NCBI GenBank assembly: GCA_947044365.1
Contig: OX345636.1
Span: forward strand, 59,523,537-59,587,536
DNA length: 64,000 nucleotides
DNA from: Petrosia ficiformis
Lineage: Eukaryota > Porifera > Demospongiae > Haplosclerida > Petrosiidae
Reading direction: 5' to 3'
Shown one piece after another: positions 27,623 to 49,120 of the stretch. Position numbers and translations under genes: made by a program. The notes beneath the pieces were generated by a model. It saw only the letters and a program-made list of their open reading frames with translations, did no database searches and had not been told where the DNA came from. Numbering within the stretch: position 1 is the stretch's first letter; each line of letters starts with the position of its first letter.

Positions 27623-28123
27623 TACACATACATGTAGATGTACATGTACATAACCCCACTATTAAATAATTTATATTCACATGTCACCTGAAATAATTGG
27701 AACAGAGTGTTTGTATAAATGTAGCATTGTTAAGTAAATTCTTAGCTTGATACACCTACTATTATTCCACTATATATAAGAGAACAACTACATTTTGTAT
27801 TTAGTAATAACAACTATTGATCTTCCAGATAATAAATTCTATCATCTTTTATAATTAATAATGAAGATTTTAATAATAATCATTTGTTTCATGTAGATAT
27901 TCTCTTTTGTATACATTATACACATGTATCATGTACTTTTATATCTTCATTGTATCTAATTCAGATTATAAAGAGTATCACCATACCATTGTGTATACTT
28001 ACATAATCTTGTTTGAATTCTCATTAGTTTATATCTTATAATTCAGTTACATTCCTCCCTACTTAATCAACATGATGTTAAATGTAGTATCCTATCAAGA
28101 CACTAAATTGTTTAATATAATTA

Positions 28124-28658
28124 ACCCGAGCGCGTAGGCAGAGGGTTATAGTAGTCTTCTGGTGTGTGTGTGTGTGTGTCTGTGTGTTACCGCTTGATCT
28201 CCACAACTGCAAGGTCTTACTGTATTCTGAGCATATCTGCAGAATACTGGTATAATGAAAGGTAAGAAATAAAAGCGATTTGTTCTGAATTAGTCATGTT
28301 GCAGAGAAACAGCCGTGCAAATACTCGTCGATCTGTCGCCATCTTGAAATTTTATTGTTTTTGCTGATGTCAGCAGGAAACACTGAACACTAACTTTTGT
28401 CTCTTTGAAGTTTTGTTTCTTAAGCTTTGTCTATCGTCCTAACGAGTGTTTATACAGCTATTTGTGAAGTTTTGTCCAGAAATTCGCTAGTTCTCAAGAG
28501 ATCTCATGGCCATGCTATCTTCATAATTTGCATATTCATGATGTACTACTGAATGGGGGTGTTCCTGGCTGTTGCAATAGGTTACTTAGGCAAAGTTGTT
28601 CTAAAGCCATGCTGTTTTTGCAAGCTAGCGAGGGTTCTGCACTTTAGTGCATTCATTA
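28124..28658. mobile_element. 535-bp insertion in intron 3, absent from the paralogous intron
   Basis: Alignment to 48601-48660 shows a clean insertion starting ACCCGAGCGCGTAGGC and ending in AGTGCATTC, flanked by ATTA on both sides (4-bp duplication). It contains a (GT)n run. It has a start (CGAGCGCGTAGGCAGAGGGT) and end (GCTAGCGAGGGTT) that recall the CGCAGCGAGGGTAAC motifs at 20283 and 44876. No ORF; non-autonomous. Class unknown. Confidence 0.75.
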
Positions 28659-28742
28659 TGATTAGTAATTGAGTCATGCATTTCTAATATGAATTGATTG
28701 TACAAATTCTAAAGAATTACTTTTATTATTTCTTTTACATAG

Positions 28743-28841
28743 TATGGACGGACACCTACTCATCAGGCTACTATTAACAACAGTGTAGATGCACTATCTG
28801 CACTAATACGTCATGAATCAAAATTGGACACACAGGATAAG
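28743..28841 (+). CDS. Ankyrin-repeat exon 4
   Basis: A 33-codon phase-0 exon from a TACATAG acceptor to a GTTAGT donor. It encodes Y-G-R-T-P-T-H-Q-A, a first helix, the VDALSALIRHES second helix and KLDTQDK. It deviates from the ankyrin consensus (T for L at position 6, E-S for G-A in the turn) more than exon 5. It sits in a segmental duplication whose other copy holds exon 5. The introns match almost perfectly but the two exons differ at 35 of 99 bases and 18 of 33 residues, with divergence starting and stopping at the splice sites. Confidence 0.85.
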
Positions 28842-29100
28842 GTTAGTTCTAATAACACACTATACTATAATATTCATTATTTTATTGTACTAATTCCGGT
28901 GGTAATACATATTTTCATTAGTAATTGAATTTTGTGATTATAAAGAAGGGCTAATCTACTATACAGATCTGTGTTATAATATATAAATACCTTGTATGAT
29001 ATAACAGTGTCACAAGTATGATATTTACGTAGAATATGATTTACATTAGTCTCCAGTAATATAATGTAAATGAATTAATTGTAAGTACTCTCTGTCTTTT

Positions 29101-30800
29101 ACCATTTTGATGACATGATTATTATTATCCTTTCCAAATAATTATATTGGATAAACACATCATGAGATTCATGAATATATACACATAAAAACCAGTTATA
29201 AATGTCTTGTTTTGGTGTATATGTGGGTAACATGTACAGTAGTCATCAATAAAATGTTCACATAGCATTGTTGCAGTACACAAGTAGTACTCTACACTCC
29301 ATAAAACACTGAAAGAGCATATTATTATGCATACTACACTTAATAAAATAATAAACAGCAGTGACATTTGAGCTCCACCTTCTACTACTAACTAACCTTT
29401 CTTTACCTCTACATATATAACTCTCCCATTTTATATAACTAGAGTTTCTAACTTACATGTACTTTGCTGGAAAGAAGAGTTGTTAAGAAAGCTATAGATG
29501 TTAAATATGTGATTCACTATCAGCAAGAAGATAGCAAGAAGATAGCAAGGCGAATGCTTACAAGTTTAGTATACCAAAGGGCAACACCCACACCTTTACT
29601 TACCTGTATAACTTACTCATTTTACAGTTTATATAGACTACTAACTTACTTACAGGGGAGCTTCTAACAAAGTTGTAGATACCAAATACATGCTTCATTA
29701 GTCAGAGGAAAGCAGCAAAGGGAGTGTTTGAAAGTGCAGTGGTCAGTACCAACAGCCACGAGGCTATAATAGTGCACTATGTGTTGTACATGTACGTATG
29801 TACAGTGTACATATTAAAATTAAAATGTTACCATAGTTAGTAGTTAACATGGTGCAACATACTTAGTACATACATGTACATGTACGTACTACAATAACAC
29901 TGTGTGAACTTTTTATTGAGGGCTACTGTATACAAGAATGTGTACACATGTATGTGTCTAGTAATTACATGTAGTCTGATGGCATTGCCTCTTCACTGGT
30001 AGGAGGAAGGGTCTGGGACATATATGTACATACACATGTATATAATACATGTACTATAATACATGTACCAGATTACTCCACTTCAAACCACAAGCTCCAC
30101 ATCACATGTAACAAATACAATGTTCAATGTGAATAATATTGTTTGTATTATACATTATAACTGGTATAACAATTGAGAGGGTATAAAACCCAGAATGGAA
30201 TGAAACTGAATGTGGAATGGAATGGAACGGAACTGGAAGTTGATAACTATTATTATATGGTTGGTAATTGAATTTATTAAGTAATTTTAATATTATATCA
30301 TGCACAAAAAAAACCAAACAAAGTCTGTACCTTTATTAGTGGAATATTTGTCTACCAATAATGATCAATCTCAATATTGACATACAACCATACAAAAGTA
30401 GTTACATCATATATAGTAATTTATTAAGTAACTTAACAAGTGCATAGGTAACAAAGTATCTACATAAGTGATATATAGCAACTCATTATAAATAAATAAG
30501 TAACTTCATATGAATAGTCTCATCACTAGAATCTTTACATTTGGTAGATGAATCTTCCAAGATATACACTTAGATATTTTGAATGGTGGTGGTGATGAAG
30601 ATGATGACAGAGAGTCATACTCATCGCTACAAATTAAAATGAGTTCAGAAGTCATTCCTCTCTTGCTTCCACATTTGTCTTTTTGCACATACTAATAATA
30701 TTAAGATTAAATAATTTTATTTAATGTAGTTATTAATTTCCGGTTCCGTTCTGTTCCAAGTTTTCTACCTACCCATCAAAATTATATTATACATGTAACC
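29101..30800. repeat. Repeat block H-like copy (partners 33300-34600, 46130-46960, 49040-49560, 52540-53880)
   Basis: Shares the stretch around ATAAACAGCAGTGACATTTG, the one around GGGGAGCTTCTAACAAAG and the GGAATGGAA-rich tail. All copies have the same orientation. The short minus-strand ORF seen in several copies (starting MSLLFIILLSV) has different C-termini in each, so it is not a conserved gene. Confidence 0.8.
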
Positions 30801-31064
30801 AAATTTTATTAAACACTTACCTTTAGTCAGTCACTATTCAGCCATTTTGTACAAGAAGCCAACAAAATGTGGAATTAATGATATCTCATCCTGGATACCA
30901 AATTCGATTGACTTCCTGTACAAAATAGCGGAGCTAACCATTTGATCAAAATTATTTTGTGGTAGAGTACAACTTGTTCATTTTTGTAATTCAGTCACTA
31001 TTGCCCAGCCCTAATTAATACACACTTACAAAGCAAGTAACCCCACCTCAATCAACCTTCCAGC

Positions 31065-31576
31065 TTGTAAAAGTCTGATATACATGTACATGTATACACT
31101 TGTCCTCAGACCACTTCCTCATATGTAAAGTGAGTGGTAACACCAGACTATCTAGTAATTATACAATGACACCTTAGCTCACTATGTAGTTGATAATAAT
31201 CTTTTCACTGAGTACATACATGTACATTACTCAATGAATGAGTCTTCCAAGTAGATTCTTAATCTCTCATACATGTACATACATGTAGTGTTGGGCGATT
31301 ATGAGAATTGATGATATGATACACATGTAATCATACAGTAGATATTCACGATTATCACGGTTATAATCAAAGAGATTTGTAGTATTCCCACCTTTGGCTT
31401 GGACTGATTTTTTACACTTGTAACAAACGGGCCTCTTGTTCTGACTCAATCATAATACAATCTTCTGTTGCCTGTAGTCCCAAGTAAGTCCAAACACAAC
31501 TTTTTGTGTTTTTTTTTCTTTACAACATTCATTCCCTGAGCTTGATGTAAAGCCATCTTTTTACTTAAGACACTTT
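31065..31576. repeat. Duplicated block G (partners 50300-50783 and partly 57010-57195)
   Basis: Near-identical to 50300-50783, starting around CACTTGTCCTCAGACCACTT and ending inside the hAT element that follows. The 57-kb copy stops where a 33-bp minisatellite begins. Confidence 0.85.
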
Positions 31577-31715
31577 TGTGGTCTAACACAATAATCGTGC
31601 ATGCGCGATAATCGTGCAAATCAATAATCACCTCAAACAAAAATGTAACGGTTTGATTATTGTTTATTATAAACACCGTGATTTAATCGTCAAACTGGTT
31701 AATCGCCCAACACTA
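31286..31715 (-). mobile_element. hAT element with 16-bp TIRs and a decayed BED zinc finger
   Basis: Perfect 16-bp terminal inverted repeats TAGTGTTGGGCGATTA are flanked by CATACATG and CACACATG (7 of 8 match). The minus strand encodes pieces of a BED-type zinc finger, split between frames. One frame has an aromatic K-S-C-V-W-T-Y-L-G-L segment (about 31470-31510). Another has the C-Y-K-C pair with NTTNLF and a decayed His end (about 31340-31440). BED fingers are the usual N-terminal DNA-binding domain of hAT transposases. The catalytic part is absent and the element is dead. Confidence 0.82.
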
Positions 31716-31894
31716 CACACATGTATACATGTAATTATAAATTATTGTTAATGTACATTGAGCTAACCTGTAGTATTGAGCAATTATTGAATATTCTAAT
31801 AAATGAACATCTTTAGAGAGTTCAATTTATCATGTACTATATGATACAAAGATCATGATGATCAACTGAATAAAGAGTGTGTAACATATAAAAA

Positions 31895-32424
31895 CAAGTG
31901 TACATAGAGAAAAAAACATCCCTATATTTGCTTTGTGATGACTATGTATTAAGCATTGCTGATGGCACTAGTGTCTCTACCTTTCTGTGTACTCCTGAAG
32001 ACGTAAGTGTAAGCCTAATTGCAGTCTAAATACACAGATGTCTGATGAACTGACTGAGGTACTCCTTCAAGGTTCTAAATGATGACTTCCTCGTGTCTGA
32101 AACTCAACAACTTATCATACATACTTGTTAAAGATTCTTGCATAATATCTATACTGTTTCTCTGCTATATACAACAGTTATTAGCAGTTTTACATACTTT
32201 TTGAATCTTCCTGGCTGGTCTGTAGCTCAAACGCGCGTTCTTTTACGCGCCACGCCCATTAATTGACCGAGCCCCCGGGAATGACGCAACTTCCTTAACT
32301 ACATATACAACGCATAGTCGCGCAAGTGACACAAGAATATATATATATAATTATATATATATATATATATATATACATTAAACCCCGTGGAAAGCAATTA
32401 TAGATATGGCCCTACGGGCCATAA
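31895..32424 (+). mobile_element. Hairpin-ended element, second subfamily
   Basis: Begins CAAGTGTACATAGAG and then CATCCCTATATTTGCTTT. Ends GGAAAGCAATTATAGATATGG with the hairpin GGCCCTACGGGCC and ATAA. It has an internal (TA)n run. Its interior matches 60048-60569 rather than the 41-kb copy, so two subfamilies share the same ends. Confidence 0.78.
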
Positions 32425-32829
32425 AAAAGAAGGGCTAAGCAATACTGGATATTATTTGTTGTACTTGTATTTTATAACTACACATAGTAGCCACATTCAT
32501 TAGTGATAATAATTATCTTAACTAATAAGTTCTAGTGTTGCTTAGACTTTCTCATGTAGTCTGTTCTCTTGTATTTCAATCTTCATTCACTGGATCATCA
32601 TTCTGTTTAAATTAAGTTTCTGATGATCTACTTTATTATAATATTTAGTATATGATCAATGATATAACAAAACATTCACATATTATCCATTGACTACATT
32701 ACTGATATGAATGTACACTTGAATTGAGCTAATTATAAACCTGATACTATTTAAATATCATTAAAAGCTAGGACATTGTTTGTATAAATTATAATTATAT
32801 TATGTATAATAATTATCTCTTGGTAGAGA

Positions 32830-34600
32830 TATAATAAACCTATAAAATGTTTTCAAAATCTCGCTCATGCAGTGTCATGGGAATTCATCAATTAATTGAC
32901 ATTATTCTGGACTATTACATTCTTGTTTGAAACAAATTGCATCACAGTTTCCCCAGATGCTTCCTCATTTTATCAATATAATTATCAGCCATGCAAGACT
33001 ATTATATACTATATACATTTAGTATGTATACAAGTACATCAGTATTTTTGATAAGCTTATATGGCGCACCATTGGCCCAAAGAGCTTCTTATTTGGCGCT
33101 GCACAGTTCTCTATTTGGGCCAGTGGTGCAGTTAATTATGATTATATTGTCAGTAACAGCATTAACTCTTTGTTACTCGGCTCAAGATGTATTCTCAATG
33201 GCACACACACTAACCATTGTTGAGCCAATTTGGCCCATGCTTCAAAACTTATCAAAAACTCTGAAGTACATGTGTATGTATTAATTTACAGCCTATAAAG
33301 GAATTAGTCTCAATGTAAGTACTCTCTGTCTTTTACCATTTTGGTGACATAATCCTTTCCAAATATATTGGATAAACACATCATGAGATTCATGAAGAAA
33401 AATGACCTTCTTAGTTTCCATGCATGACTTAAAACTTTTAATAGAAGTTTATATTTCATTCCACCATATAAACATTATGTGTACATGTAGGTAGTATTTT
33501 AATACAGACATGTTTATATACACATAAAAACCAGTTATAAATGTCTTGTTTTGGTGTATATGTGGGTAACATGTACAGTAGTCCTCAATAAAGTGTTCAC
33601 ATAGCATTGTTGTAGTACACAAATAGTACTCTACACTCCATAATACACTGAAAGAGCATATTATTATGCATACTACACTTAATGAAATAATAAACAGCAG
33701 TGACATTTGAGCTCCACCTTCTACTACTAACTAACTCTTTACCTCTACATATACATGTATAACTCTCCCATTTTATATAACTAAAGTCTGTAACTTACAT
33801 GTACTTTGGTGGAAAGAAGTGTTGTTAAGAAAGCTACACATGTATAGATGTTAAATGTATATGTGATGCACTATCAGCAGGAAGATAGCAAGGCAGGTGC
33901 TTAAAAGTTTAGTAGTCTAAAGGGCAACACCCACACCTTTGCTTATACCTGTGTAACTTCACATTTTACACAACACAGACTTCTAACTTCCTTAATTAGA
34001 CAGGGGAGCTTCTAACAAAGTCGTAGATACCAAATACATGTATATGTACATGTACATGCTTCGTTAGTCAGAGGAAAGCAACAAAGCAAGTGTTTGAAAT
34101 AGCAGTGGTCAGTGCCAACAGTCATGAGGCTAATGTGCTATGCGTTTTACATATAATTATGTACATATTATAATTAAAATGTTGCCGTAATTAATATAGT
34201 GGAACATACTTAGTGCATACGTACTACAGTAACACTGTGTGAACTATTTATTGAGGGCTACTTTAATACAAGAATGTGTACACATGTACGTGTCTAGTAA
34301 TTACATGTAGTCTGATGGCATTGCCTCTTCACTGGTAGGAGGAAGGGTCTGGGACATACATGTACATGTACATGTATATTACCAGATTACTCAACCTCAA
34401 ACCACACTCTTATAAGCTCCACCTCACATGTAACAAATACAATGTTCAATGTACTGTAAATGGGGAGGGTATAAAACCCAGAATAGAATGAAACTGAATG
34501 TGGAATGGAACGGAACGGAACGGAACGGAACCGAACTGGAAATTGATAACTATTATTATATGTTTGGTAATGGAATTTAATATGTAATTTTAATATTATA
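32830..34600. repeat. Duplicated block H (partner 52060-53870)
   Basis: Collinear, same orientation, highly similar (for example the stretch around CATGGGAATTCATCAATTAA). Includes the MITE at 33040. The partner lacks one TACATG unit at 52711. 34610-34820 is TACATG-rich. Confidence 0.88.
33040..33263 (+). mobile_element. MITE of the CAGTGTTTTTGATAAG family
   Basis: 224 bp with ends CAGTATTTTTGATAAGCTTA and the inverted CTTATCAAAAACTCTG. The 97-codon ORF across it is also open in the 52-kb copy but lies entirely within repeat sequence, so I do not call it a gene. Confidence 0.75.
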
Positions 34601-34609
34601 TCGTGCGCA

Positions 34610-36700
34610 ATCGTACGTGTGTACATGTATACTGTACATGTACATGTACTTCTTAACTGCATGTATAATAATTATTACATGTACATACATGTACATGTAC
34701 AATAATACATGTTCATACTATACGTCATCTTCATACTATAGTACATAGTAGATGTACATGTATATACTGTGGTACTTCTACATGTACATGTACATGTACA
34801 ACTACAGTATATAATCTGTACTTAAAATTAAAAATTTGGGATATTTGAATTAAACATTGGCCACACCCACCATTAATTAATTAAACGAATGCAAAATCTG
34901 CAGACTCAGAGAAGCCTAAAACTTTCTTGAAACATTTGTAAGATGTTCATGCATGTACTATTACTTGACTGTCTATTACTATCCCATGTCTGAGTTCACC
35001 TAACTACATGTTACATGCCTTGCTTTGGCAACAAAATTAAATACCACTTACTCATAACAACCATACATAAGTAATAGATAGAGTAAAGGCAAAACACAAA
35101 GAAGTGATACTTACATGTACGTATGTATGTATGGTTGTTATATGGAAGTGGAATTTAATATTGTTGCCAAAACAAGGTACCATCCCCATCTTGTTCCTGT
35201 GCTTTTTCAGTTTTGATATATATCAGTGTTTATGAAAAGCTCATATGGCGCACCATTGACCCAAAGAGCTTCTTAATTATTTAGCACTACACAGTTCTCT
35301 CTTTGAGCCACATGGTGCAGTTAATTATGATTACATTGTCACTAACAGCTATGTTAACTGGCTCAAGATGTTTCCAATGGCATAACACTCTAACCATTGT
35401 TGAGCCAATTTGGCCCAAGCTTCAAACTTATCAAACTCTCTCATCCCTACATACTCCATTTCATTTTTTAAAATGTTTTTATTATATATATAATATAATC
35501 ACAATATAATAATTATTATTATTGTCATGTATTGTCTACAATTATTTTCTTATCAGTAATTATTGTTCTGCACTGTGAGTGCATTCATTAAAATAGTAAG
35601 GCCCTTACTTAATCCTTAGACAACTGTTATGGAATATACAACAGTGTACATGTATGTGACATTTGGTACCATACTGCATTCATGATCATGATATAGCATT
35701 CCAAGTGTCATGTTTGTCTTCAGCAGCAAATCCTTATAAATTAAAGAAAGTCATGACGTTTATTTGAGCTGAAAATAGACTTAGACGGATTTTAATGGAT
35801 ATCCCCATTTGTTCAGCATTCATAAGATCAGCACCACATTGATACTTGGGTTTTCATGCATTTGGGATACTTCTTGAATGAACCATGTACATGTACACTC
35901 TGGATGTATATATATATATGTACATGTAGATGGTGTGAGACTATCAGTACCATCATGATAGGAGACAAAATGACTGATGTAATACATTAATTATCCTCTA
36001 TCCATTTTAGTATATTGTACATGTCACTACAATGTCTCCATAAGTTACATGTACTGTACAACCTCTTAAAAGCAGATGCACATGGTAAATTTGAAAGTAT
36101 TTTCAGTCACTATTGATTTCATAGACATAGCCAGACCTTTAAGATTGGATGGGCCAGGCAAAGCATACATGTACATGTACATGTAGATCGGCGTGCAAAG
36201 CATGCCGAAACAGTTTAGTGCTAATAAATTTTTGATGGGCATGGTCTACCATTCGTGGCCAGGCAGACGAGTTCAGTTGAAACTACTTCAACTTTGGGAT
36301 GGGCGATTATGAAAATATGAATCAATTATTATTATATGTGCAAGTATCACGATTATTGCCATTATTGGTTACCTTACATACAATGTACATGTATGTATGT
36401 AGATTTCATTGAACAATCAAATTGATACCTTTTATTAGTTTAGTAAACAGTGTTGAAAAACTGATTTAGATGTGATAGTACTGAAAACCTGAAGTTATGG
36501 CACAATAATCATTATTTTTGTGACCACGATATGGCCAACATCATTATCACAGAAAATTTTAATCACGATTATCAAAATATTCCCCATCCCTACTTCAACT
36601 GCATGACCCTAGTTGAATCTGCTGGTTCCATCATCTTTAATACACATCTTCATAACTATATCCTTAAGAGCATTCAAACTCTCTGATTTTCTCTAAGTGA
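34610..36700. repeat. Duplicated block A, second copy
   Basis: Partner of 12240-14030, containing its own foldback (35018-35178) and MITE (35224-35440), plus one private hAT MITE (36294-36592). Confidence 0.85.
36294..36592. mobile_element. hAT-type MITE with perfect TSD CTTCAACT
   Basis: CTTCAACT at 36286-36293 and 36593-36600 brackets a 299-bp element. Its ends (TTGGGATGGGCGATTATGAA and, inverted, TAGGGATGGGGAATATTTTG) are imperfect inverted repeats. The paralogous site near 13928 lacks it. Confidence 0.85.
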
Positions 36701-36984
36701 AAAAACGATATTTATCACACAATAATTATAGTACAATTTACCTTACACTACACCTCCTAATTATGTGAATAATATTGCCTGAGCCACAGCCCAGGCTGGC
36801 ACTGTGCTAGCTACACCTATCCTTGCAGTGACTAACTCTCTAAAATAAGGACACCTTGCTATTATGTAAAGCAGTCAGAAATATACATGCCACAAATATT
36901 TTTTCTTAATTTATTGAAGGACAAAAAAATTTTAACACAAAGCGAAAAACATCATCTGATCTTTCAATATGGTACCATTGGTGG

Positions 36985-37520
36985 CAGTCTATTGGAGAAA
37001 GAAGAGTAATCAAACATATACAGCAGTTTTCATCGCTGCCTTGCTAACGAAAAGAATTTACCTTTTAGTATATATACTGAAGGACCTCGAATTTACAAGT
37101 TCTAGAGAGAGTTTAAAGCATCACGAAAGATGCTGAAGAAACAAGGCAAAGGAGATCGTCCCCAGGCAGTAATGTCTTTATCTAATGAGGATATTGTAGC
37201 AAACTGGTGCACGGGGCTGTTCGAATCCAGAACCTTTAATGCATACTGTATGGTTTCGGGTATATTACCACATTGGTGTGCGAGGAAGGGATGAACCAAA
37301 AAAATATTGTTTTGGAGACTTCACAATTTAGTCCGCATCTGATGGAAGGAAATACATAGAATACACCAGTGAACAAGACACAAAAACAAGATCTTGAGAG
37401 CATGAATATGATCATCGCTCTTTCAAGCCCAAAATGTGGGCTACTCCTGAATGTCCCAAGAGGTGTCCTGTAATCATTTTTGAGCATTTTATCCAAGACC
37501 GACCAGAAAGTGCATGTACA
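36985..37520 (+). pseudogene. Decayed Crypton / DUF3504-like tyrosine recombinase
   Basis: Translation in two + strand frames gives a recognisable C-terminal part of the KIAA1958-like/DUF3504 family. One frame has MLKKQGKGDRPQAVMSLSNE (from about 37129). After a frameshift near 37240 come TVWF, HIGVRGRDE, a C-F-G-D-F segment, then GRKYIEYTSEQDTKTRS and FKPKMWATPE, ending near P-V-I-I-F-E-H-F. In this family these segments belong to a tyrosine-recombinase fold carried by Crypton DNA transposons and domesticated relatives. In-frame stops (after GDFTI, after KTRS) and the frameshift show it is dead. No terminal repeats were found. The minus-strand ORFs across this region are shadows. Confidence 0.75.
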
Positions 37521-37559
37521 TGTATGTGCAAACCAATGTCTCCATTTTACTTAGCCATC

Positions 37560-38220
37560 AACGGACTACTATTGGTTGCAAATAGTATAAGATAATGATT
37601 TTGCCTCTTTTTTGGGTAAATGTAATTGAAGGGGAAAGTATGTACTATTTTCAGACTTGCATGAGTTTTCTGGGATCCAGTAAACCCACACATGTATAAT
37701 TGTACATGTATTCAAGAGGGTATTTGAAAGTGTAGCTGTAGTATTTCTCTTCCTGAATGAATGTATATCTGATAGTGACATTACCCTCATGATAAGACAT
37801 AAACAGACTGATTGTTATACATTAAACATCTTTCCTGATACAGTCCATAGACTATTCATAAATAAATCAAGTCTACCATTCTATTGTAAGCATTACTAGT
37901 ATACAGTGTTCTGAACATGATTTTACTATTTGTGGTACATGGATTAATTTATTAAAAGATTTAATAGGTGTGGCTAAGTTTCTTGAATCATGGCAAAAGT
38001 TAGTAGGAAAACGATGAGTGATAGTGATGTAGGCTTAATTCCAGAGCTGAAATGATGGACCAGGACCGCTACCAAAAAGCCTAGTGAGAACATACCCTGC
38101 TAGTATATTGTTTAATATATATGTATCTGTACGTTATAAGCGAGAACACACGGTTAAGGAGGACAATTTTCAGTCCCAATTGGCCTCTTGCCAATCTTTG
38201 TAGTTAAAAACCATCATCCT
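37560..38220. repeat. Repeat block E, second copy
   Basis: Collinear with 25165-25760 and 42480-43170. Confidence 0.8.
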
Positions 38221-38700
38221 TTTTGAATAAATTATAAGTACTGTGTACCTTACTGAACTGTCCGTTCAACAATAAACTGTTAACACTACAATTTAATGGG
38301 TTCTGTCTTCATGTAACCATTGTGTGATTATGTCATCATTATAATTATCATAACATTATTCTATACAGTATCATTGTTAGTATTGGGTGTGGTTTTATAT
38401 TTTATAGAATCAAATGTGTTTCTATTTATAATAATGAATGGTTACATGAACAAACTGTCAGTTAATATCTCATTTGTAATTTATAATGTATGGATTGCCA
38501 TCTTTTCAAGCTATCCTCTGAATTAATTCACATATTCTATAATCAATACATTTTCAGTGGTCCTAATGGTGTGGTTGTTCCATTGTATATTGTGTTATAT
38601 TTGGTGTTTATTATGTTAATAATTATGTTAGTTGAATTAGGAACTGATAGGCACATTGATTTAAAAAATGGCACTCTAGCTTTGTAATGATATTCATAAC
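38220..38700. repeat. Repeat block B, third copy
   Basis: Matches 14880-15330 (AACAATAAACTGTTAACACT onward), including the hydrophobic but probably non-coding frame. Confidence 0.75.
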
Positions 38701-38820
38701 TTTTATTAATTTTTAAAAACATATTTCAATTACATGACAGCATAGTTTCCCCAGTATATATAGTATTGCATATCGCTGCCAAAAATATTGTGATACGATA
38801 TATTTGAAATAACTACATGT

Positions 38821-39441
38821 TAGGCCTGTGCGATAATCGCGATAGGTCGATAATCGCGAAAAGAAATTGTTATCGCGATAACGATAATGTTGACATTCTT
38901 ATCGTGATAATTTGCGCATGCGCACACTGCTCACACGTGATCACACGTTATCGCACGTTGTTCAATCAATACACTTACAAGCATCTCGTCGAGTAACGAT
39001 GGCTTCTAATTTTGAATACCTACCTTTAGAGAAGGCCAAAAGTCCTGTTTGGAAATATTTCGGGTTTCTAGCACAAGAGGGGAAATTTTTGGAGCCGGAT
39101 AAAAAGAAGAGACAGACAGTTCACTGTGTTTTGTGCTGTCTTACAAAGAAAATACCACTAACTTGATTGTCCATCTGCAATACAACCATAAAGATGAATA
39201 TGATAGTGTTTCGTTTTAAATAGCTACTAGTTCCATATGTCTGAACTGTCTAAACCAGGTCAGCGCTCAATAACAGAGGCATTTGAGAATCTTACTCCTT
39301 AATAATAATTTAACTTTTATTCATTGAATTGAAATTAAATAAATATGTTATTCAGTTATTCTTGAAATCAAATTATCGTGATAATCGTGATAGTTGGGAT
39401 TATTATCGTGATATAGGTTTTTTCATTATCGCACAGGCCTA
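38821..39441 (+). mobile_element. hAT element, 17-bp TIRs, perfect TSD CTACATGT
   Basis: Starts TAGGCCTGTGCGATAAT and ends with its exact reverse complement. Both flanks are CTACATGT (38813-38820 and 39442-39449). The interior has CGCGATAATCG-type palindromes near the left end and a BED-finger coding remnant. At 621 bp the catalytic domain is missing. Confidence 0.92.
38999..39220 (+). pseudogene. BED zinc finger fragment of a hAT transposase
   Basis: From ATG at 38999 the frame reads through a KSPVWKYFGF segment (aromatic signature of BED fingers) to C-V-L-C. It then loses frame near 39155; the next frame supplies TNLIVHLQYNH, completing the C-x2-C and H-x4-H zinc ligands. A further piece, QRSITEAF, typical of the linker after BED fingers in hAT proteins, appears near 39260-39290. 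It is a non-functional remnant. Confidence 0.8.
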
Positions 39442-39449
39442 CTACATGT

Positions 39450-40655
39450 ACATGTAGGTGAATGCAGGGTATTGAAAGTACACTTGTAAGTGTTAGCACT
39501 GAGCAGTTATATAATTCCATGGTGATGGTGGTAGGTTGCATTATTGAGATTTAAAAGGCTGTTTCACAGTGACATATATACATGTACATGTATATCCAAT
39601 AAGGTTGTGTACTGGCAGTCTCTTATGCTATTGTCTTCACAATTGAATGCTATACAGGTGTTTTCTACTCAGTCGCTAACAAATGCAGCCCAGAAGAATT
39701 TGAGATGCTCAGTGCTATCTCTCTCTGTATGCATATAATATTATAATTATGTAGCTCTGACTTCAAGTAGTCTTGTTGTAGGTCATTCTTCTCATGATGT
39801 CATATCTCTTCATTGAGATTCACACGTATGTATTTTTACAGGTGTATTTTTATTATGATCGATAATATAAAAAGCATACCGTACATGTAAATACACAATG
39901 TAAAGAGAATATAAATTATTATCGTCAATAATATAAAATGCATTTACAGACAAACACACTTGACTTATTAGGTTAAGGTCACTAATGCTCACAATAATAG
40001 TAGTATTTATAATATATTTATATTTCATTAATCATGTGTGAATAGAATACTTTGAAATGGCTATGTTTAGTTTCAGCTATTAAACAATTCTGTTTGTTTA
40101 ATTCACTATGTACATGTGTATATGAATAAAATAATAGAGTCAAATTATATTTTCACATGTGACCTATACTTTCAAATGAAATAAGTAATGAATCTGTATA
40201 GGTGAGTATATCCTATAGTCACTATAAAACAATCATGATATCACAGAATCCTTGACTTGTTACTACAAATGCAATCAAAATGTGGAAGGCTACATCACTT
40301 GAATGATAAAATGATAGATTTTCATAGCTTAATTAATAGTTTTTACAAAGCAGCTGACTATTAAAATAACATGTTTATGTAGTTTGGTGGTTACAGTATT
40401 ACTTGCTTATCCATGTGTACTGTAATAAACTATTACTGTAGAGTGTAGAATCATTCTTGGTATATGTACATCTAATATGTACTATAGTAAGAATATGACC
40501 TATAGTATTAACATGTACCTATTATACATGTATGTAGATACAACAAAGATTTGTACTGATGGGATAGCATTATAATTATAAGTCAAACTTGTAAATTGTA
40601 ATGGAATAATTTCATTACTTATTTCATTACTTATTTCATTACTCCCATTACAATA
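39450..40655. other. Intron 4, unidentified
   Basis: AT-rich, no supported gene. A triplicated TTATTTCATTAC motif lies at 40617-40644. Confidence 0.5.
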
Positions 40656-40659
40656 TATA

Positions 40660-42470
40660 AGTTTGATCACATGACTGTGTGTATTCAAAAATGTCACATC
40701 TAAATCCTGCAATAAAACAAACTGTAACAAAGGCTATATAGCATCCCAGATACACATGTATATACCATCCTTCTACAACCTTCTAATCTAATCAAACTTG
40801 TTTGGTCATGTGACTAACTTGTTGAAATATTTGACAGAAATAATGTAATAATAGAAAAGAAATTAATAATAGATTATATAATTATTACATGCATGCATAT
40901 ATAATTTATATAAATGAATATCAGCGCATTGTCCCCCCTTGCCATCTTCTGGCCAACATTCCTACTACAGTGACGTTTATTATCTAGATCTTGTAATGTC
41001 CAATCTGATTGCTCAGTTTATTAATTGATCATATGACTTGGTATATTCCAAAAGGGCATATCAAAACAAGTGTACGTATATAGAGAAAAAAAACATCCCT
41101 ATGATTGCTTTACAAATTTAAGTAAAGATAAACGTATCTCTATGACTGCTTTGTGGTGTCCAGCATTCGGTAATCATGGCTGACTTTATCAAGCATGAAA
41201 GACAACAGCTTATTATTTTGATTATCTACTCTCCTGACATTTCAAAGGACCTTGTAGAACTTTAGGAATATATTTCAGGCAGAATAGCTAGCTATTAGTT
41301 CCAGTTTCTACATAAGCTACACAGATTTCTTTCTGCTGCTGTGTAGAGCTTGATCAATGATCGCGCGTTCTTTTACGCGCCACGCCCATTAATTGACCAA
41401 CCCTGCGGGAATGATGTAACTTCCTTAACTACGTATACAACGCATACTCGCGTAAGTGGACACAAGAAAATATATATATATATATATAAACATACATCGA
41501 ACCCGTGGGAAAGCAATCATAGGGATGGCCCTGCGGGCCATAATTAATTAACAAGCTATAGCGAGGGCTGTGAAGTGTCCTGGATGCCAACCTTCTACCA
41601 TCATCTGGAGACTGTGATTCACCACGGTAATAACAAAGATTCAAATACATGTCAATCAGGTGACAGTCACCTGATTATGATATCAATGCATCAGGAATGT
41701 TCACTCAAGTTACCAGACTGTGTTTCGCCGTGACGCATGTCAGTCTGTAGACAAGACTAGCCACCATTGGAGACTGTGCTTCACCACAGATGTGACATAC
41801 ATACATGTAGATTAGAATATTTGTAATACACATAGGTGGAGTGAATCAGGTGACTGATTATGACATCACTGATGATGCACGCAGCTGTTAACTTGCGTCT
41901 AATCAGCACTGTACATGCACTTACATGTACTTCTTGTACATACTTGTATTAGATGTTCATACTGTAGTACATGTACATATACACACTATGATATTGTTAT
42001 ATTATTTATATAGATTGCCGATATAAATTTGGGGTGGGACTGGAGCCTCCCTTTTTTCTTCTCCTGTACTTGTGCTATACATACATTATAAGATACATGT
42101 ATATGTACATGTTCATACTGTATGTATATTAATACTTACATGTATACTTGTTATAATGCTTGTTGATTATAATACATGTACATGTACATGTACCATGTAT
42201 AATACAGTAACATGTACATACATGTATATACATGTACATGTAGTACATTTACATACATACAGTGTATACTGTAATACATGTATATAATACATATGCTATT
42301 GTACATTTTGTAACTAGAATACATGTACATGTACATACATGTACAATAATTCATGTTAATACTATAAATCATTTTCTTACTATACTACATTCATGTACAT
42401 GTATTAGATGTACATAGGATAGTACATGTACATGTACATGTACACAATATATTATGTGAGCATAAACAAT
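40660..42470. repeat. Duplicated block D, second copy
   Basis: Partner of 22930-24240, enlarged by the hairpin-ended element at 41067-41543 and by several extra CATGTA units. 41900-42470 is nearly pure TACATG-type sequence. Confidence 0.88.
41067..41543 (+). mobile_element. Hairpin-ended element with exact empty site in the window
   Basis: The 477-bp insertion between ATCAAAA and TTAATTAAC is absent at 23331, where the two flanks are directly joined. It begins CAAGTGTACG and CATCCCTATGATTGCTTT, and ends AAAGCAATCATAGGGATGG with the hairpin GGCCCTGCGGGCC and ATAA. Either there is no target duplication or only AA is duplicated. It is non-coding. Confidence 0.85.
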
Positions 42471-42479
42471 ATACATATG

Positions 42480-43310
42480 TAGCTTAATATTTGTGTTCAG
42501 TAGTAGCTTTTATGAGTCAAAAACATGAGAATGATTTTGCCCCTTTTTTGGGTAAATGTATATAGACAAAGTAATGGGAATATTGAAAGGGTGTCCTCTT
42601 CCTTTTGAGGATTTAAAGGAAGGGGAAAGTACATATATGTACTATTTTGGGTTTTCTGGGATCCAGTATACCCACACATGTACATGTATTCAAGAGGGTA
42701 TTTGAGACGGTAGCTATAGTGTTTCTCTTCCTGAATGAATGTACATTGTGATAGTAACATTACCTCATGATAAGACACAAACAGACTGAATGTTATACAT
42801 TAAACATCTCTCCTGATACTATACATAGACTATTCATAAATAAATCAGTGTACAGTGTTCTCAACAGGATTTTAGTATTTGTAGTACATGTAGAAAAATG
42901 ATTAATTTATTATAAGATTTAATAGGTGTGGCTAAGTTTCTTGAATCATGTCACAAGTTAGTAGGAAGACGATGAGTGATAGTGGTGTAGGCTTAATTCC
43001 AGAGCTGAAATGATGGACTAGCACCACAACCTAAAAGCCTAGTGAGAACGTACCCTGCTAGTATATTGTCTAATATATGTACAGGTATACGTTACAAGTG
43101 AGGACACACGATTAAGGAGAACAATTTTCAGTCCCAATTGGCCTCTTGACAATCTTTGTAGTTAAAAAACATCATCCTTTTTATATAAATTATAAATACT
43201 GTGTACCTTACTGATCTGTCCATTCAACAATAAACTGTTAACACTACAATTTAATGGGTTCTGTCTTCGTGTAACCATTGTGTGATTATGTCATCATTAT
43301 CATTATCATA
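42480..43310. repeat. Repeat blocks E and B, further copies
   Basis: 42480-43170 matches 25165-25760 and 37560-38220. 43170-43310 matches the start of block B. Confidence 0.75.
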
Positions 43311-44171
43311 TACAATACTTGTTGTGTGTAATATTTGTATCTATGGATTTTCTCCTTGTCTTGGAAAGGTAATCGAGTGTTTCAACTGTTAATTGTAGAA
43401 CTCCAGCATTTCTCATAATGGCACTGTGGTCAGTGTTAATATCGTAGATGTATAGTTGAGGTTATACCACATGCTGTATGTAAACTACACTTGACAGGTG
43501 TGGTGTAACTAGTAGTTGTGTGAAGACAAGCTAACTAATGTTGGGTTGTTGTAACTTGTTGCAAAGCAAAAAGTGGTTATTTGGACAAGTGGACAAGTGT
43601 TAATTTGTAGTCCTAAGTGAAATATCAATTTAGATACAATTGTTTCTAAATTAATATAATTACTACATGTCATGTGATATTGTAATTTGAAAACAATGGG
43701 ATCCAAATTTACCTTGAAATGTCACGTGGAAATCACATACATGTAATAGTATTACATAAGGAATCATTTTTGATAATAGTATTACATAAGGAATAACCCA
43801 ATCCACAACCCACTTAGTTTATCTTAAATTACATGTATTATATAATTTATAGTGAGTGTACTGTATAGCTGTTTTTATTCATGGTAAGAGAAAAACTGTT
43901 CCATTACCGACGTACATGTATTTCACACACACGATTGTGGACAATTGAAGAACACGTAAATACATTTCCGCAAACTGTTATTTACACATTCTTCAATCTA
44001 CTGCGAAATTAAGGGAAAATAAACTCCCCTGGAAAAACACCCACTATATGGTACAAGTGTATATAAAATCATTTCCCTATGCACCTAATTGCTAATTACA
44101 TGTACTGTATGTGCCTTAATAGTCATGAGGACAGAGGAAAAGATATAAACATGAAAAGTGTATAAAACATT
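43311..44171. other. Intron 4, unidentified
   Basis: No gene seen. A short direct repeat GATAATAGTATTACATAAGG-like lies at 43746 and 43771. Confidence 0.5.
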
Positions 44172-44545
44172 TTATGGCCTGGCCTGTAAGGCCATCCCTA
44201 TGATTGCTTTCCCACGGGTTCGATGTATGCTTATATATATACATGTATATATGTTTGTGGCCACTAATGCAATTATGGGTTATATACGTAGTTAAAGAAG
44301 TTACATCTTTCCGGGTACTCAAGCGCTCGGTCAATTAATAGGTGTGGCACGTAAAAGAACATGCGCTCGAGTTCTACAGACCAGCAGAAAAAAAGCTGTG
44401 TAGCTTACTTAGGAACTGGAACTAATAGGTAGCTATTCTTTCTAAAATATATTTCTAAAGTTCTACAAGGTCCTTTAAAAGGTAAACAGAGTAGATAATC
44501 AAAATCATAATTATAAATAGGCTGATGTGTTTCAGGCACGATAAA
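44172..44545 (-). mobile_element. Hairpin-ended element, reverse copy, truncated
   Basis: Starts TTATGGCCTGGCCTGTAAGG and CATCCCTATGATTGCTTTCC. The interior shares GCTGTGTAGCTTAC and GTAGATAATCAAAAT. The far end is lost. Confidence 0.72.
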
Positions 44546-46956
44546 AGTGTATGAAACGTTTTACCTAAGTCATTTCAGTGGGTGTGGTCAGTTATTTTAT
44601 GTTCTTAACTAAGTTATGTATTCTAGTAAAGAGAATTTAGTTGAATCAGCTGTACTTTCAAATCATAGGCTATTGTTGTTAATTCAGTTTCATCAGTCAA
44701 AGATTTGTGGACAAGCAGTGCATGATTTCATTCCGGGGCCCTACTTTTCAATCTAATTCATTATCTTATCAATACAATGAAACTTTCATAATGTACACAT
44801 GCTTTAATAATTCCTAAGAAGTTTTGTGATAATAACAATTAAACAATGATTACCATACACTTCCGCCTACTCTTCGCAGCGAGGGTAACAACAGTACATA
44901 ACCAGACCGTTTTTTGTCGTGGTGCTTGGCAGTCTGGAGACGAGACTAGCCACTATTGGAGACTGTGCCTCACCACAGATAACATATAGATTGGAATATT
45001 TGTAATACACGTAGGTTGAGTGAATCAGGTGACAATCACCTGATTATGACATCACTAATGATCATCAGGAATGTTAGACAAATTTGGCAGACTGTTTTTC
45101 TCCATGGGGCATGGTAGTATGGGGATAAGACTTTCTGTAAAAAATAGTCTCATATTAGAAGAACGCTGTGACATTGTTGGGCGAGCCTACATGATGGTGA
45201 CAATACAACATGTGGTATTACTTACACAGCTACATGTAAATAGAACATGTGGTATTACTTACACAGCTACATGTAAATAGAACATGTGGTATTACTGAAT
45301 TACAGCACATACAACATGTACATTTAGAGCGATTTCAGTAGCAACTTTCTAGTGTTGGACTCACTCAGGCTCATCCCAATTATTTGTACTTGTAACCCCA
45401 TCATGACAACAGTTACAAGTATTACCACATGTTTTATGAACATGTATTAATGTGTATTAGTGATCATATGATTATAAATATACATTTATATGTCTAAGTA
45501 AACTATGAATGTAGTACATGTAGTATTGTACATGTACATGTACGTTTGATAACTATATTACATGTACATACATGTTAATACTATAGTGCATACATGTATT
45601 ATATATTCAGTACATGTACATACTATGGTAATGTTATAATATATAAATTGTTTTATACTTATATATTCTGCTTTTTATGTTCCGGTTCAATTTACATGTA
45701 ATATAAGTAATCAGTAACAATTAATAATTGCTTAAGGTAAGAATATTGAAAGAATACTTCAGTTTCATTAAAGATCTGTGTACCTAGACTACAGTTGCAC
45801 GCACTTTGTAAATTTGGGGTGGGACTGTAGCCTCCCTGTTTTCTTCTCTTGTCCATAGGAATACATTTTTTCTCTGTATATGACTATATTGATTTTCTTT
45901 ATTATTACTATGAAAATCAAAACATTGTGAAACAGTTTATAAAAGTATCAAACATAATGTCAATTGAAATGTATTGATGGCCATTTTTTGCAAGCCATCC
46001 TACATACATGTACAGTACATGTAGATGGTAGTACCATTATTACTGTAGTGTGTACATTTACATGTACTACATGTGCATGTATTATAGTATTATAATAACA
46101 AGTACAGGTACTAATATGTACGTATGTATATTATACATGCAGTATGAACATGTACAGTAGTCCTCAATAATAAGCTCACATAGCATTGTTGTAGTACACA
46201 AGTAGTACTCTACACTCCATAAAACACTGAAAGAGCATATTATTATGCATACTACACTTAATGAAATAATAAACAGCAGTGACATTTGAGCTCCACCTTC
46301 TACTACTAACTAACTCTTTACCTCTACATATACATGTATAACTCTCCCATTTTATATAACTAGAGTCTGTAACTTACATGTACTTTGTTGGAAAGAAGAG
46401 TTGTTAAGGAAAGCTATACATGTATAAATGTTAAATGTACATGTATGATGCACTATCAGCAGGAAGATAGCAAGGCAGGTGCTTAAAAGTTTAGTAGTCT
46501 AAAGGGCAAAACCCACACCTTTGCTTATACCTGTGTAACTTCACATTTTACACAACACAGACTTCTAACTTCCTTAATTAGACAGGGGAGCTTCTAACAA
46601 AGTCATAGATACCAAATACATGTATCTGTACAAGTACATTCTTCGTTAGTCAGAGGAAAGCAACAAAGCGAGTGTTTGAAATAGCAGTGGTCAGTGCCAA
46701 CAGCCATGAGGCTAATGTGCTATGTGTTGTACATATATGTACATATTAAAATTAAAATGTTGCTGTAATTAACATGGTGGAACACACTTAGTACATACAT
46801 GTACGTACTACAATAACACTGTGTGAACTTTTTATTGAGGGATACTGTATACAAGAATGTGTACACATATATGTGTCTAGTAATTACATGTAGTCTGATG
46901 GCATTGCCTCTTCACTGGTAGAAGGAAGGGTCTGGGACATACATGTACATGTACAT

Positions 46957-47094
46957 TAGCTGACACCTCCCAATAGCGGACACCTCTCTAAGACGGACAC
47001 TTTCTTGCAATCCCAAACACACTTCCATAGATGCCCATAGATTGGAACCCTCTGAAATACGGACACCTCGCTATTTCGTATACCGGACACATAT
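46957..47094. repeat. GGACACCTC-type repeat fragment
   Basis: Contains GCGGACACCTCTCTAAG, ACGGACACTTTC, ACGGACACCTCGCTA and CCGGACACA at roughly regular spacing. It is probably a fragment of a longer dispersed element. Confidence 0.5.
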
Positions 47095-47185
47095 CACGCC
47101 CCCATTGATATTATAAGATACGAAAACCACTCTATATTGCCATTTAATTTCCTTAATAAGCATGAGCAAAATGCAACAGTTCATC

Positions 47186-47349
47186 CAGGGGTGTGGAAAT
47201 AGTGAGCCAATTGCCGAACATTCTGGCTTGTTTTCACTACTTTTGTCCTGCTCCCCATGTACTTTGTATACAGTTCAGTTTTAATTTACCGGACATTCAC
47301 TAGATTTATCGGACAATGTCCTGCATGACTGGGTGTTTCCACACCCCTG
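47186..47349. mobile_element. 164-bp hAT-type MITE with empty site in the window
   Basis: The ends CAGGGGTGTGGAAA and the inverted TTTCCACACCCCTG are flanked by AGTTCATC and AGTTCATG. At the paralogous position 21896 the uninterrupted CAACAGTTCATGAGTTGG is present. Confidence 0.9.
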
Positions 47350-47771
47350 AGTTCATGAGTTGGTTTTGGTTTTAGAGCAACAGGAACTCACAAAACTAGT
47401 ACAACTAGTACAACTAGTACAACTATACTCCAAAAATACTTTAGATGAAACACTTCCTTCAATTGCTCATTTAATAACATTTGGTATCAGGAAGAGCTAT
47501 TATTAATCTTCTTAGATACTGAATTTCAGTACAAAATAGTGGACTTACGTATGAGCTATTAACATTAATTTTATCAAAATTGTGTTACAGGAAAGTGTCC
47601 CTTTACAAAAATTAGGTCACATATTGATGGTAGTTCTATTTCATGTACATATATATACATTCTTTTTCTACATAAGCTATAACTATTCCTCTACATGTAA
47701 TCGCATATACACATAGTCACACACATGCTTTTATTGCTTTAACAATTCCTAAGACATTTTGGGATAATAAT

Positions 47772-48144
47772 CAAATATGGGTTCACTTACAATTACAATT
47801 GTAATTGAGGTCAATTACAATTACAATTATGTAGTTGTAATTGTACTGTAATTGAAACATTTGTATTGATGCTATTTTTAATCATAAGGATTTTACTTTC
47901 ATTCGGCATTCTATACCAAATTATTAAAATGTAATGGTTATTATACATGTAGACACTTTCATTTTAGAATTTATGCTACCGGCTTAGAGGTATTGCTATA
48001 ATTATATTGTAATTGCATGCGACTGTACATGTAATTGTAGTTGAATGTCACATAATTGTAATTGTAATTAACCAGTGGTAGCTACACTAACAATAATTGA
48101 AGCTGTAATTGTAATTGGCCTTTTGTAATTGAACCCAGACCTGG
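47772..48144. mobile_element. AATTGTAATT-rich MITE, third copy
   Basis: Same element and block position as 22323-22694 and 27249-27622. Confidence 0.75.
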
Positions 48145-48725
48145 TACACATACATGTAGATGTACATAACCACTATTAATTAATAATTTATATTCAAATG
48201 TCACCTGAAATAATTGGAACAGAGTGTTTGTATAAATGTAGCATTGTTAAGTAAATTCTTAGCTTGATACACCTACTATTATTACACTATATATAAGAGA
48301 ACAACTACATTTTGTATTTAGTAATAAAAACTATTGATCTTCCAGACAATAAATTCTATCATCTTTTATAATTAATAATGAAGATTTTAATAATAATCAT
48401 TTGTTTTATGTAGATATTCTCTTTTGTATACATTATACACATGTATCATGTACTTTTATATCTTCATTGTATCTAATTCAGATTATAAAGAGTATCACCA
48501 TACCATTGTGTATACTTACATAATCTTGTTTGAATTCTCATTAGTTTATATCTTATAATTCAGTTACATTCCTCCCTACTTAATCAACATGATGTTAAAT
48601 GTAGTATCCTATCAAGACACTAAATTGTTTAATATAATTATGATTAGTAATTGAGTCATGCATTTCTAATATGAATTGATTATACAAAATCTAAAGAATT
48701 ACTTTTTTATTTCTTTTACATATAG

Positions 48726-48824
48726 GTTGGTAATACACCCCTTCATCAGGCTGCTAAAGGGAATAATAAAGATGTGGCAGATATACTATTGCGTCATGGA
48801 GCAAATGTGGATACACAGGATAAT
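48726..48824 (+). CDS. Ankyrin-repeat exon 5
   Basis: A 33-codon phase-0 exon from a CATATAG acceptor to a GTTAGT donor. It is a near-consensus ankyrin repeat: V-G-N-T-P-L-H-Q-A-A-K-G-N opening, KDVADILLRHGA second helix, NVDTQDN loop. It is the counterpart of exon 4 in the other copy of block C. Fifteen of 33 residues are shared, mostly consensus positions plus the R-H and D-T-Q-D motifs. The surrounding introns are nearly identical. Confidence 0.9.
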
Positions 48825-49120
48825 GTTAGTTCTAATAACACACTATACTATAGTATTCATTATGTTATTGTACTAATTCCGGTGGTAATACATATTTTCA
48901 TTAGTAATTGAATTTTGTGATTATAAAGAAGGGCTAATCTACCATACAGATCTGTGTTATAATATATAAATACCTTGTATGATATAACAGTGTCACAAGT
49001 ATGATATTTACATAGAATATGATTTACATTAGTCTCCAGTAATATAATGTAAATGAATTAATTGTAAGTACTCTCTGTCTTTTACCATTTTGATGACATA
49101 ATGATTATAATTATTATCCT

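Follow-up and report, generated by a model that had tools for sequence, protein, structure and literature searches.

How can two exons of one gene differ strongly from each other while the introns around them remain nearly identical? This question is raised by a 64,000-nucleotide stretch of chromosome 1 of the sponge Petrosia ficiformis (C1:59523537-59587536, here called the window), which carries a predicted gene for an ankyrin-ROC-COR-Death protein and in which two ankyrin exons, exon 4 and exon 5, were marked in a preliminary description as diverged inside two copies of one segmental duplication. The genome that was searched for their relatives comprises 191,215,263 bases, with 63,279,122 on C1. 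The explanation that best accounts for the results, to which a probability of about three in four can be given, is exon shuffling combined with ectopic gene conversion, in which introns would be kept uniform by exchange, old exon lineages persist within them, and selection diversifies the binding positions of the ankyrin repeats.

When window positions 26930-29170 are aligned against 47450-49160 with MAFFT, 35 of the 99 exon bases are found to differ between exons 4 and 5, without a gap, as do 18 of 33 residues in their translations; the preliminary description had counted the same by hand. Its counts in the flanks are also reproduced: 2 differences in 87 positions plus 3 gap columns before the acceptor, where two sites and small indels had been given for about 85 bases, and 3 differences in the first 130 bases 3′ of the donor. 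The 3′ flanks as a whole differ at 5 of 278 positions (6 gap columns), and the upstream intron between 27100 and 28120 at 24 of 1008 (13 gap columns). Divergence starts and stops near the splice sites, as had been claimed, and the exon-4 acceptor lacks an AT dinucleotide that is found at the acceptor of exon 5. By Nei-Gojobori counting, the proportion of silent differences (pS) between the exons is 0.298 (7.0 of 23.5 silent sites) and that of replacement differences (pN) is 0.371, with only four codon differences that are purely silent. The silent excess over the introns is present and is larger than the earlier hand estimate of about 15% suggested. The exon-5 copy lacks a stretch of about 530 bp that is found upstream of exon 4 (Table 1), and the homology of the pair therefore falls into two blocks; by eye the start of this stretch is more GC-rich than its surroundings, and it resembles an inserted element.

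The two loci are homologous, as proposed, but to speak of two copies of one duplication understates the case, since they are 2 of at least 101 exon-plus-flank units, 98 of which lie on C1 between 50 and 62.5 Mb. Every one of the 101 carries an open 99-bp phase-0 ankyrin exon without a stop; GT follows the exon in all of them and AG precedes it in 100, the sole copy with a changed acceptor (ATAA) being L036 (C1:59910602), whose exon is identical to those of L032 and L034. By clustering, 52 exons are of type A (like exon 4) and 36 of type B (like exon 5), and the 13 that are neither were set aside from the A/B statistics. A further 7 of the 88 A and B copies, all of type A, have flanks that cannot be aligned, and comparisons involving clean flanks therefore rest on 45 type A and 36 type B copies. 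When exon 4, exon 5 and the 3′ flank served as DNA queries, the best 40 of 110, 112 and 157 candidates, respectively, were scored; the first 58 distinct copies form a subset of the 101. The exon-4 sequence alone finds matches at 91-98% identity (best 40 scored of 54 candidates) and exon 5 with its near flanks finds matches at 83-97% among the 40 scored. Exons like both members of the window pair thus exist in dozens of copies, which is compatible with exon replacement, one of the alternatives that had been put forward. The 3′ flank of exon 4 is matched at 97-100% by the best 40 of its 157 candidates, the query itself included. A 28-base donor pattern, with up to three mismatches allowed, occurs at 105 sites, 80 of them exact, while its reversed control occurs at none. 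No relict intron without an exon was found among the 100 listed of these 105 sites, all 100 of which carry one; of the 5 others, one (60630162) was probably collected through the exon searches.

Across this family, the histories of exon and flank are uncoupled. Flank p-distances are 0.0264 within type A, 0.0275 within type B and 0.0287 between the types, while the corresponding exon pS values are 0.020, 0.126 and 0.326 in codons 1-24 and 0.051, 0.130 and 0.286 over all codons. Exon divergence exceeds flank divergence in all 1620 A-B pairs (45 A × 36 B), which goes well past anything chance would give. In one such pair, L005 and L034, 3108 flank bases aligned by BLAST show 1.16% mismatches, while the exons differ at 37 of 99 bases. 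A block analysis of 53 of the 56 long loci, covering nine 90-bp blocks of flank (about −550 to +276) together with three sampled further upstream, shows where the departure lies: the median distance between types never rises above the larger of the two within-type medians in any flank block, only the exon departs, and among the block means there is one exception, d1, with 0.026 between types against 0.024. The divergence profile expected from the preliminary description is seen family-wide, and introns are alike whichever exon type they hold, which is compatible with intron homogenisation, another of its alternatives. In the exon tree a single branch, with a support of 99, divides A from B, and the flank tree requires 16 changes of type. 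The window pair itself, with a flank divergence of 0.0228, stands at the 37th percentile of the 1620 pairs. The nearest relative of the exon-4 flank is that of L002, a type A copy, at 0.0091, and the nearest relatives of the exon-5 flank are four B and two A copies, likewise at 0.0091. A local duplication of exons 4 and 5 alone was considered and rejected, because their flanks are not mutual nearest relatives.

Individual flank sites give the same picture. No fixed difference between A and B copies was found in the scored flank stretches, which end some 12 bases short of the acceptor and resume 6 bases past the donor; at the acceptor itself the AT indel is associated with exon type, and column −1 was excluded from the final site count because of the alignment effect of this type-specific indel. 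Ten flank polymorphisms are common to both types, 6 are found in A only and 11 in B only, and 32 of 36 pairs of common sites fail the four-gamete test. Exchange also reaches into the exon. The last five codons are shared across types, with GATACACGGAATAAT present in 7 of the 45 type A copies and 8 of the 36 type B copies, and the median distance between types is 0.185 in codons 25-33 against 0.417 in codons 1-24, such that the type-bound core begins at the acceptor and ends near codon 24. Adjacent 90-bp segments of intron show no correlation with each other (r from −0.06 to 0.10), and a comparison of segment distances across and beside the exon is for this reason uninformative on where tracts end. 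Taken as a whole, the exon lineages are old, while the introns and the ROC-COR exon are young. This leaves two possibilities, a homogenisation of introns around exons that were already in place, or a swapping of exons into introns that were already in place.

The exons also bear signs of selection. None of the 88 A and B exons carries an indel, for which the probability from the flank indel rate is 2e-8; stops are likewise absent from all 88 where 3.3 would be expected (P = 0.033), which is weaker evidence. Replacement differences are concentrated at codons 1, 3, 8, 11, 12, 14 and 33, and at these seven surface codons, which were chosen for the counting test from data of the same family (the first 58 copies), pN reaches 0.267 in type A and 0.425 in type B against a flank divergence of 0.026-0.028. 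Codons 1, 3, 11, 12, 31 and 33 are presumably the positions that are randomised in designed ankyrins. Amino-acid diversity at these positions exceeds that at the rest in both types by permutation (0.454 against 0.114 in type A, p = 0.002; 0.631 against 0.223 in type B, p = 0.0005), and designed ankyrins are among the best PDB sequence matches of exon 5 alone. The counting test and the position permutation both indicate diversifying selection at ligand-facing ankyrin positions, and where the variable codons lie fits a reading of these proteins as a putative repertoire of sensors.

The order of the exons varies as well. Matches to the first, conserved ankyrin exon of the gene (88-100% identity, on C1) were scored for 40 of 58 candidates, and gene limits deduced from them are accordingly partial. 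Thirty-five of these heads lie 7.9-21.7 kb 5′ of the first A or B exon of a cluster, and the 35 clusters (C1, 55-62 Mb) hold one to five A/B exons each in 15 layouts: A, B, AB, BA, BB, AAA, ABA, BAB, BAA, BBA, ABBA, BBBA, BABAA, BAAAB and one longer, ABABAA, whose six exons span 157 kb and probably represent two or three merged genes. Two further scored heads, located at 58.789 Mb and at 59.643 Mb, are followed by another head with no A/B exon in between. Altogether 78 of the 101 exons are placed in the 35 clusters; 22 fall outside the range or strand used (those below 55 Mb, plus an inverted copy at 61.14 Mb) and the remaining exon is on C18. Eight of the 35 clusters, that of the window included, continue into the last ankyrin exon and a ROC-COR exon. 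The usual spacing of A/B exons is kilobases to tens of kilobases. At L067 (C1:61369513-61370003), exons of type B and type A are only about 284 bp apart, donor to donor, which is possibly a compact ancestral arrangement or possibly a rearranged one.

A mechanism that joins these observations can be proposed. Each 99-bp exon is a complete ankyrin repeat flanked by phase-0 introns, and it can therefore be copied, deleted, rearranged or exchanged with the reading frame left intact. Some 35 or more gene clusters on chromosome 1 have expanded recently through duplication, and their introns would have exchanged sequence among copies through ectopic recombination or short-tract gene conversion, leaving the flanks uniform, at 2-3% divergence, whatever exon they hold. 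The uniformity of the flanks is a direct observation, while polymorphisms shared between the types suggest the exchange. Within these uniform introns two much older lineages, A and B, with sub-lineages in B, remain distinct, probably because a divergence of 36% blocks conversion of the exon core and because selection favours difference. Within each lineage, amino-acid changes are concentrated at binding-surface codons in a frame free of stops and indels. Exchange may have taken either of two routes, with introns converted around an exon or an exon swapped as a short tract into a standing intron, and both would amount to exchange through shared introns. The likely products are ANK-ROC-COR-Death proteins that present an ankyrin surface built up from shuffled and diversified repeats, and these proteins are probably intracellular sensors for defence or self-recognition.

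An alternative possibility is a one-off event, in which a single placement of a B exon, or a single homogenisation of introns, took place in an ancestor and was followed by a star-like burst with no further exchange. Recent expansion is indeed evident, since the eight C1 ROC-COR exons are 98-100% identical to that of the window and the flanks are only 2-3% diverged; a star-like burst alone would yield uncorrelated segments, 72 of 143 polymorphic flank columns are singletons, and the number of type changes in the flank tree is below that in shuffled data. Such a founder is nevertheless unlikely, because it leaves the ten polymorphisms shared by A and B and the failed four-gamete tests unexplained, as well as B sub-lineages that are older than their flanks (pS 0.126 against 0.0275), the different exon orders among clusters and the exon 3′ ends common to both types. 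A further possibility is that the introns are constrained by regulatory or splicing selection while exons evolve at the neutral rate, as might be suggested by the donor 28-mer being identical at 80 of 105 sites. This is very improbable given that median divergence stays at about 0-4% over some 1.1 kb upstream in the copies that align, that the ROC-COR coding exon is equally young among its eight C1 copies, and that in type A the silent sites of codons 1-24 are of the same recent age as the introns.

Positive selection acting on exons alone after ordinary segmental duplication would explain the high pN at surface codons relative to the flanks, but it was judged a poor fit in the preliminary description and this judgement is borne out: the A-B silent divergence, 0.326 in codons 1-24 and 0.286 overall, is about ten times that of the introns, and selection on amino acids does not lift silent divergence so far. 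It can hardly be the explanation by itself. Targeted exon mutation had also been suggested. Taken as a hypermutation confined to the exon bounds, akin to diversity-generating retroelements or to deaminases, it would leave divergence that begins and ends near splice sites, together with concentrated variable codons, as is seen here. Silent divergence among type-A exons is, however, 0.020 in codons 1-24, not above the 0.026 of the flanks, so the exons are not hypermutable; the figure of 0.051 for all 33 codons is higher because of an excess in the 3′ part, which is exchanged between types. Differences between A and B are also inherited by descent at dozens of loci, as the single split of the exon tree indicates. 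This suggestion is thus barely tenable. Repeat collapse or a chimera in the assembly might be feared in a large tandem-duplicated region on one chromosome, yet the pattern recurs in every A-B pair, the frame is open in every copy, and the assembly (odPetFici3.1) was built from PacBio and Hi-C data with a contig N50 of 3.95 Mb and a quality value of 62.8, totalling 191.25 Mb with 63.28 Mb in chromosome 1 (PMC12648040). On these grounds an assembly error is thought highly unlikely.

Exon shuffling with ectopic conversion has its own difficulties, and several observations weigh against it. The open frames may be overstated, since 61 of the 101 copies were found with exon-bearing searches, which are biased towards intact exons; the remaining 40 come from the donor pattern list, and about a dozen of these are also among the exon-search results. 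The donor pattern ignores the exon, yet its 100 listed sites are all open. The 16 type changes in the flank tree are fewer than the 22-29 seen in 20 shuffles, rejection of a type-A flank clade by the approximately unbiased (AU) test is marginal (p = 0.047), and exon and flank distances are significantly correlated (0.13-0.34). Flank site −43 shows an r2 of 0.24 with exon type, and common flank sites have a mean r2 among themselves of 0.055, which is small yet greater than the 0.011 obtained by permutation. This residual association of type and flank means that exchange is incomplete, and the low linkage disequilibrium could result in part from recurrent mutation or star-like expansion. In addition, 27 of the 35 clusters have no ROC-COR exon within 40 kb of their last A/B exon, and in the 20 kb downstream of two of them intron sequence and satellites were found and no ROC-COR match. 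The exons of these 27 clusters are still open. The clusters may be truncated, may have another C-terminal end, or may serve as reservoirs, as has been proposed for LRR-only loci of Saccharina (PMC11378527; LRR, leucine-rich repeat).

The pattern is also limited in its distribution, as seen in a related array on C2, whose ROC-COR sequence is 89% identical to that of the window and whose exons, of the last-ankyrin kind, are spaced 1.9-2.6 kb apart in its dense part. Seven copies were compared (L114-L120; C2:4631440-4653110), in which two alternating exon-intron units are repeated. Close pairs differ mostly through replacements: L115 and L117 differ at 8 of 99 exon bases and 6 residues against 2 of 279 flank positions, and L114 and L116 at 4 of 99 exon bases and 4 residues against 3 of 280, while L116 and L118 differ at 1 of 99 against 3 of 273 and L115 and L119 are identical. 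The two main flank classes, by contrast, diverge jointly from each other, at 9-17% in the exon and 14-15% in the flank, and L120 is intermediate, with 13-17% in the exon and 7-8% in the flank relative to one class and 8-10% and 14% relative to the other. As to whether related ANK-GTPase genes share the pattern, this array has replacement-biased close pairs but not the extreme decoupling of exon and flank, which was seen in the C1 family only and is not universal. ROC-COR-like exons as such are widespread, with the best 60 scored of 474 first-look candidates falling on C1, C2, C3, C5, C7, C8, C9, C11, C12, C13, C15 and C17, and some copies on C1 (37.2 Mb), C2, C7 and C8 contain one or two stops.

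The gene in the window has the order of an ankyrin-ROCO-Death protein (DAPK-like), with ankyrins before and a Death domain after ROC-COR as DNA order: on the plus strand the first ankyrin exon is followed by exon 4, exon 5, the last ankyrin exon, small linkers, the P-loop/ROC/COR-A exon and Death (Table 1). Splice sites and frame predict that these exons are joined in one transcript. Pfam Ank matches lie above the cut-off at 10222-10305 (E 5.6e-7), 48726-48824 and 59444-59539, while exon 4 by itself scores 19.4 bits, slightly below the cut-off of 21.1. The last ankyrin exon has eight C1 copies at 94-100% identity, each about 2.9-3.8 kb (start to start) 5′ of a ROC-COR exon. The large 3′ exon contains the P-loop GLPGVGKT, a weak Roc match (PF08477, E 1.6e-4, 22.3 bits, cut-off 27) and a full-length COR-A match just below its cut-off (PF16095, E 2.1e-8, 34.7 bits, cut-off 35.3). 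Of the ROC-COR homologues, 120 listed of 197, all contain PF16095 and 3 additionally PF08477. The Death domain is encoded in an open reading frame downstream at L069 3939-4373 (E 1.3e-6, above cut-off).

Table 1. Features of the ankyrin-ROC-COR-Death gene and of the exon 4 and exon 5 copies, in window positions.
Feature	Position	Strand	Description
First (conserved) ankyrin exon	10210-10305	+	96 bp, phase 0; AG/GT borders
Upstream intron block	26953-28123	+	Shared with 47476-48640, 94.8% by BLAST
Stretch of about 530 bp	28124-28654		In exon-4 copy, missing from exon-5 copy (MAFFT)
5′ flank of exon 4	28655-28742	+	Near-identical to 5′ flank of exon 5
Exon 4, type A ankyrin	28743-28841	+	99 bp, 33 codons, phase 0
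3′ flank of exon 4	28842-29119	+	Homologous to 48825-49108
5′ flank of exon 5	48637-48725	+	MAFFT alignment
Exon 5, type B ankyrin	48726-48824	+	99 bp, phase 0; Pfam Ank above cut-off
3′ flank of exon 5	48825-49108	+	Homologous to 28842-29119
Last ankyrin exon	59441-59539	+	99 bp, phase 0; Pfam Ank E 5.2e-9
Probable linker exon GGETPVDLLRDTKARKAVEKTF	61450-61515	+	Predicted from splice sites
Start of P-loop/ROC/COR-A exon	62863-64000	+	Continues beyond window (L069 51-2300); acceptor predicted

Elsewhere in the window, two overlapping open reading frames in different frames lie at 4298-5465, the first with no Pfam match and the second resembling RVT_1 below the cut-off (E 0.0042). Minisatellites are found at 50800-51654 and 57193-57906, with periods of 66 bp and of 33/99 bp, and the 66-bp minisatellite is also found downstream of other clusters (L110, L112), where it is followed by long simple satellites (L111, L113).

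Sponges tell self from non-self and host dense microbial communities. The family described here provides a clear example from nature of loci whose introns and exons have had separate histories, with the old diversity residing in the exon and homogenisation affecting the intron, and it makes testable how exchange stays out of exons and whether individual sponges carry different sets of receptors. If the products are sensors, an early-branching animal would be assembling its binding repertoire out of exchangeable exons of one repeat each, in the way that brown algae use LRRs. A bolder and rather doubtful extension, offered tentatively, is that the near-identical introns serve as recombination handles for a pool of about 100 interchangeable ankyrin exons that spans the chromosome, such that individuals of the sponge would differ in their strings of exons and be polymorphic in their repertoire of ANK-ROC-COR-Death sensors, whose targets would be symbionts, pathogens or self. 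Ongoing exchange would then possibly be detectable between parents and offspring or between haplotypes, and, if true, this would be an animal counterpart of brown-algal exon shuffling.

Parts of the pattern are known from other systems. Introns that are more conserved than exons occur in the venom gland phospholipase A2 (PLA2) and related genes of snakes, in which the exons of paralogues diverge faster than the introns; there the excess lies at replacement sites, while A-B silent sites in the sponge also exceed the introns about tenfold. The WD40 repeats of Podospora anserina lie in one coding array, and no intron is known to take part in their exchange. These genes (hnwd, het-d and het-e) resemble the sponge family in combining concerted evolution with diversifying selection, in their variable repeat number and in encoding self-recognition receptors (PMC1805685, PMC2873952, PMC12222747). 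Small serum proteins, which belong with the snake genes named above, show KA/KS above 1 in two pairs of low intron divergence in the account of PMC6609765. In the major histocompatibility complex (MHC) class I of the European badger, as presented in PMC3434948, neighbouring gene parts have different histories, with recombination homogenising some of them and selection maintaining diversity in a binding domain, but the homogenised parts are the alpha2 and alpha3 coding exons and there is no shuffling of single-repeat exons. Expansions of TRADD-N and ankyrin genes in Amphimedon provide no direct match in the passages of PMC8195603 that treat them.

The next nearest system is that of the 90-bp LRR exons of Tetrahymena, for which the relevant sections of PMC6564038 describe thousands of exons of a single length and one phase, unequal crossing over and clonal exon-intron units. 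It differs in belonging to a ciliate, in its LRRs and in its clonal expansion, whereas exon and intron histories in the sponge are uncoupled. The closest known case is the LRR-ROCO family of the brown algae Ectocarpus and Saccharina, whose ROCO-type C-terminus has a candidate counterpart in the sponge genes and which shares with them fixed-length one-repeat exons of constant phase, exon shuffling, ligand-facing selection, a role as candidate immune receptors and extra repeat-only loci (PMC11378527, where Zambounis et al., 2012 is cited for this family). In the passages of that source, each 72-bp exon in phase 2 encodes one LRR, selection acts at concave-face sites, and exon-only divergence inside near-identical introns is not reported. 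The sponge family has the same one repeat per exon with constant length and phase (101 of 101 copies) and variable exon number and order (35 clusters, 15 layouts), but its repeats are ankyrin and not LRR, and it thus works like the brown-algal system without being a member of it. It also differs in its 99-bp phase-0 exons, in its Death domain and, relative to the passages on the brown algae, in long introns, kilobases to tens of kilobases in size, which have been homogenised irrespective of which of two old exon lineages they hold. Among titles and the beginnings of abstracts, a source that leaves most subscription papers uncovered, no report of old exons in homogenised introns was found for a sponge. 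Set beside the brown-algal and ciliate systems, the sponge family stands apart in its type of repeat, its intron phase and its animal host, and in that its exons have been measured to be old while its introns are homogenised.

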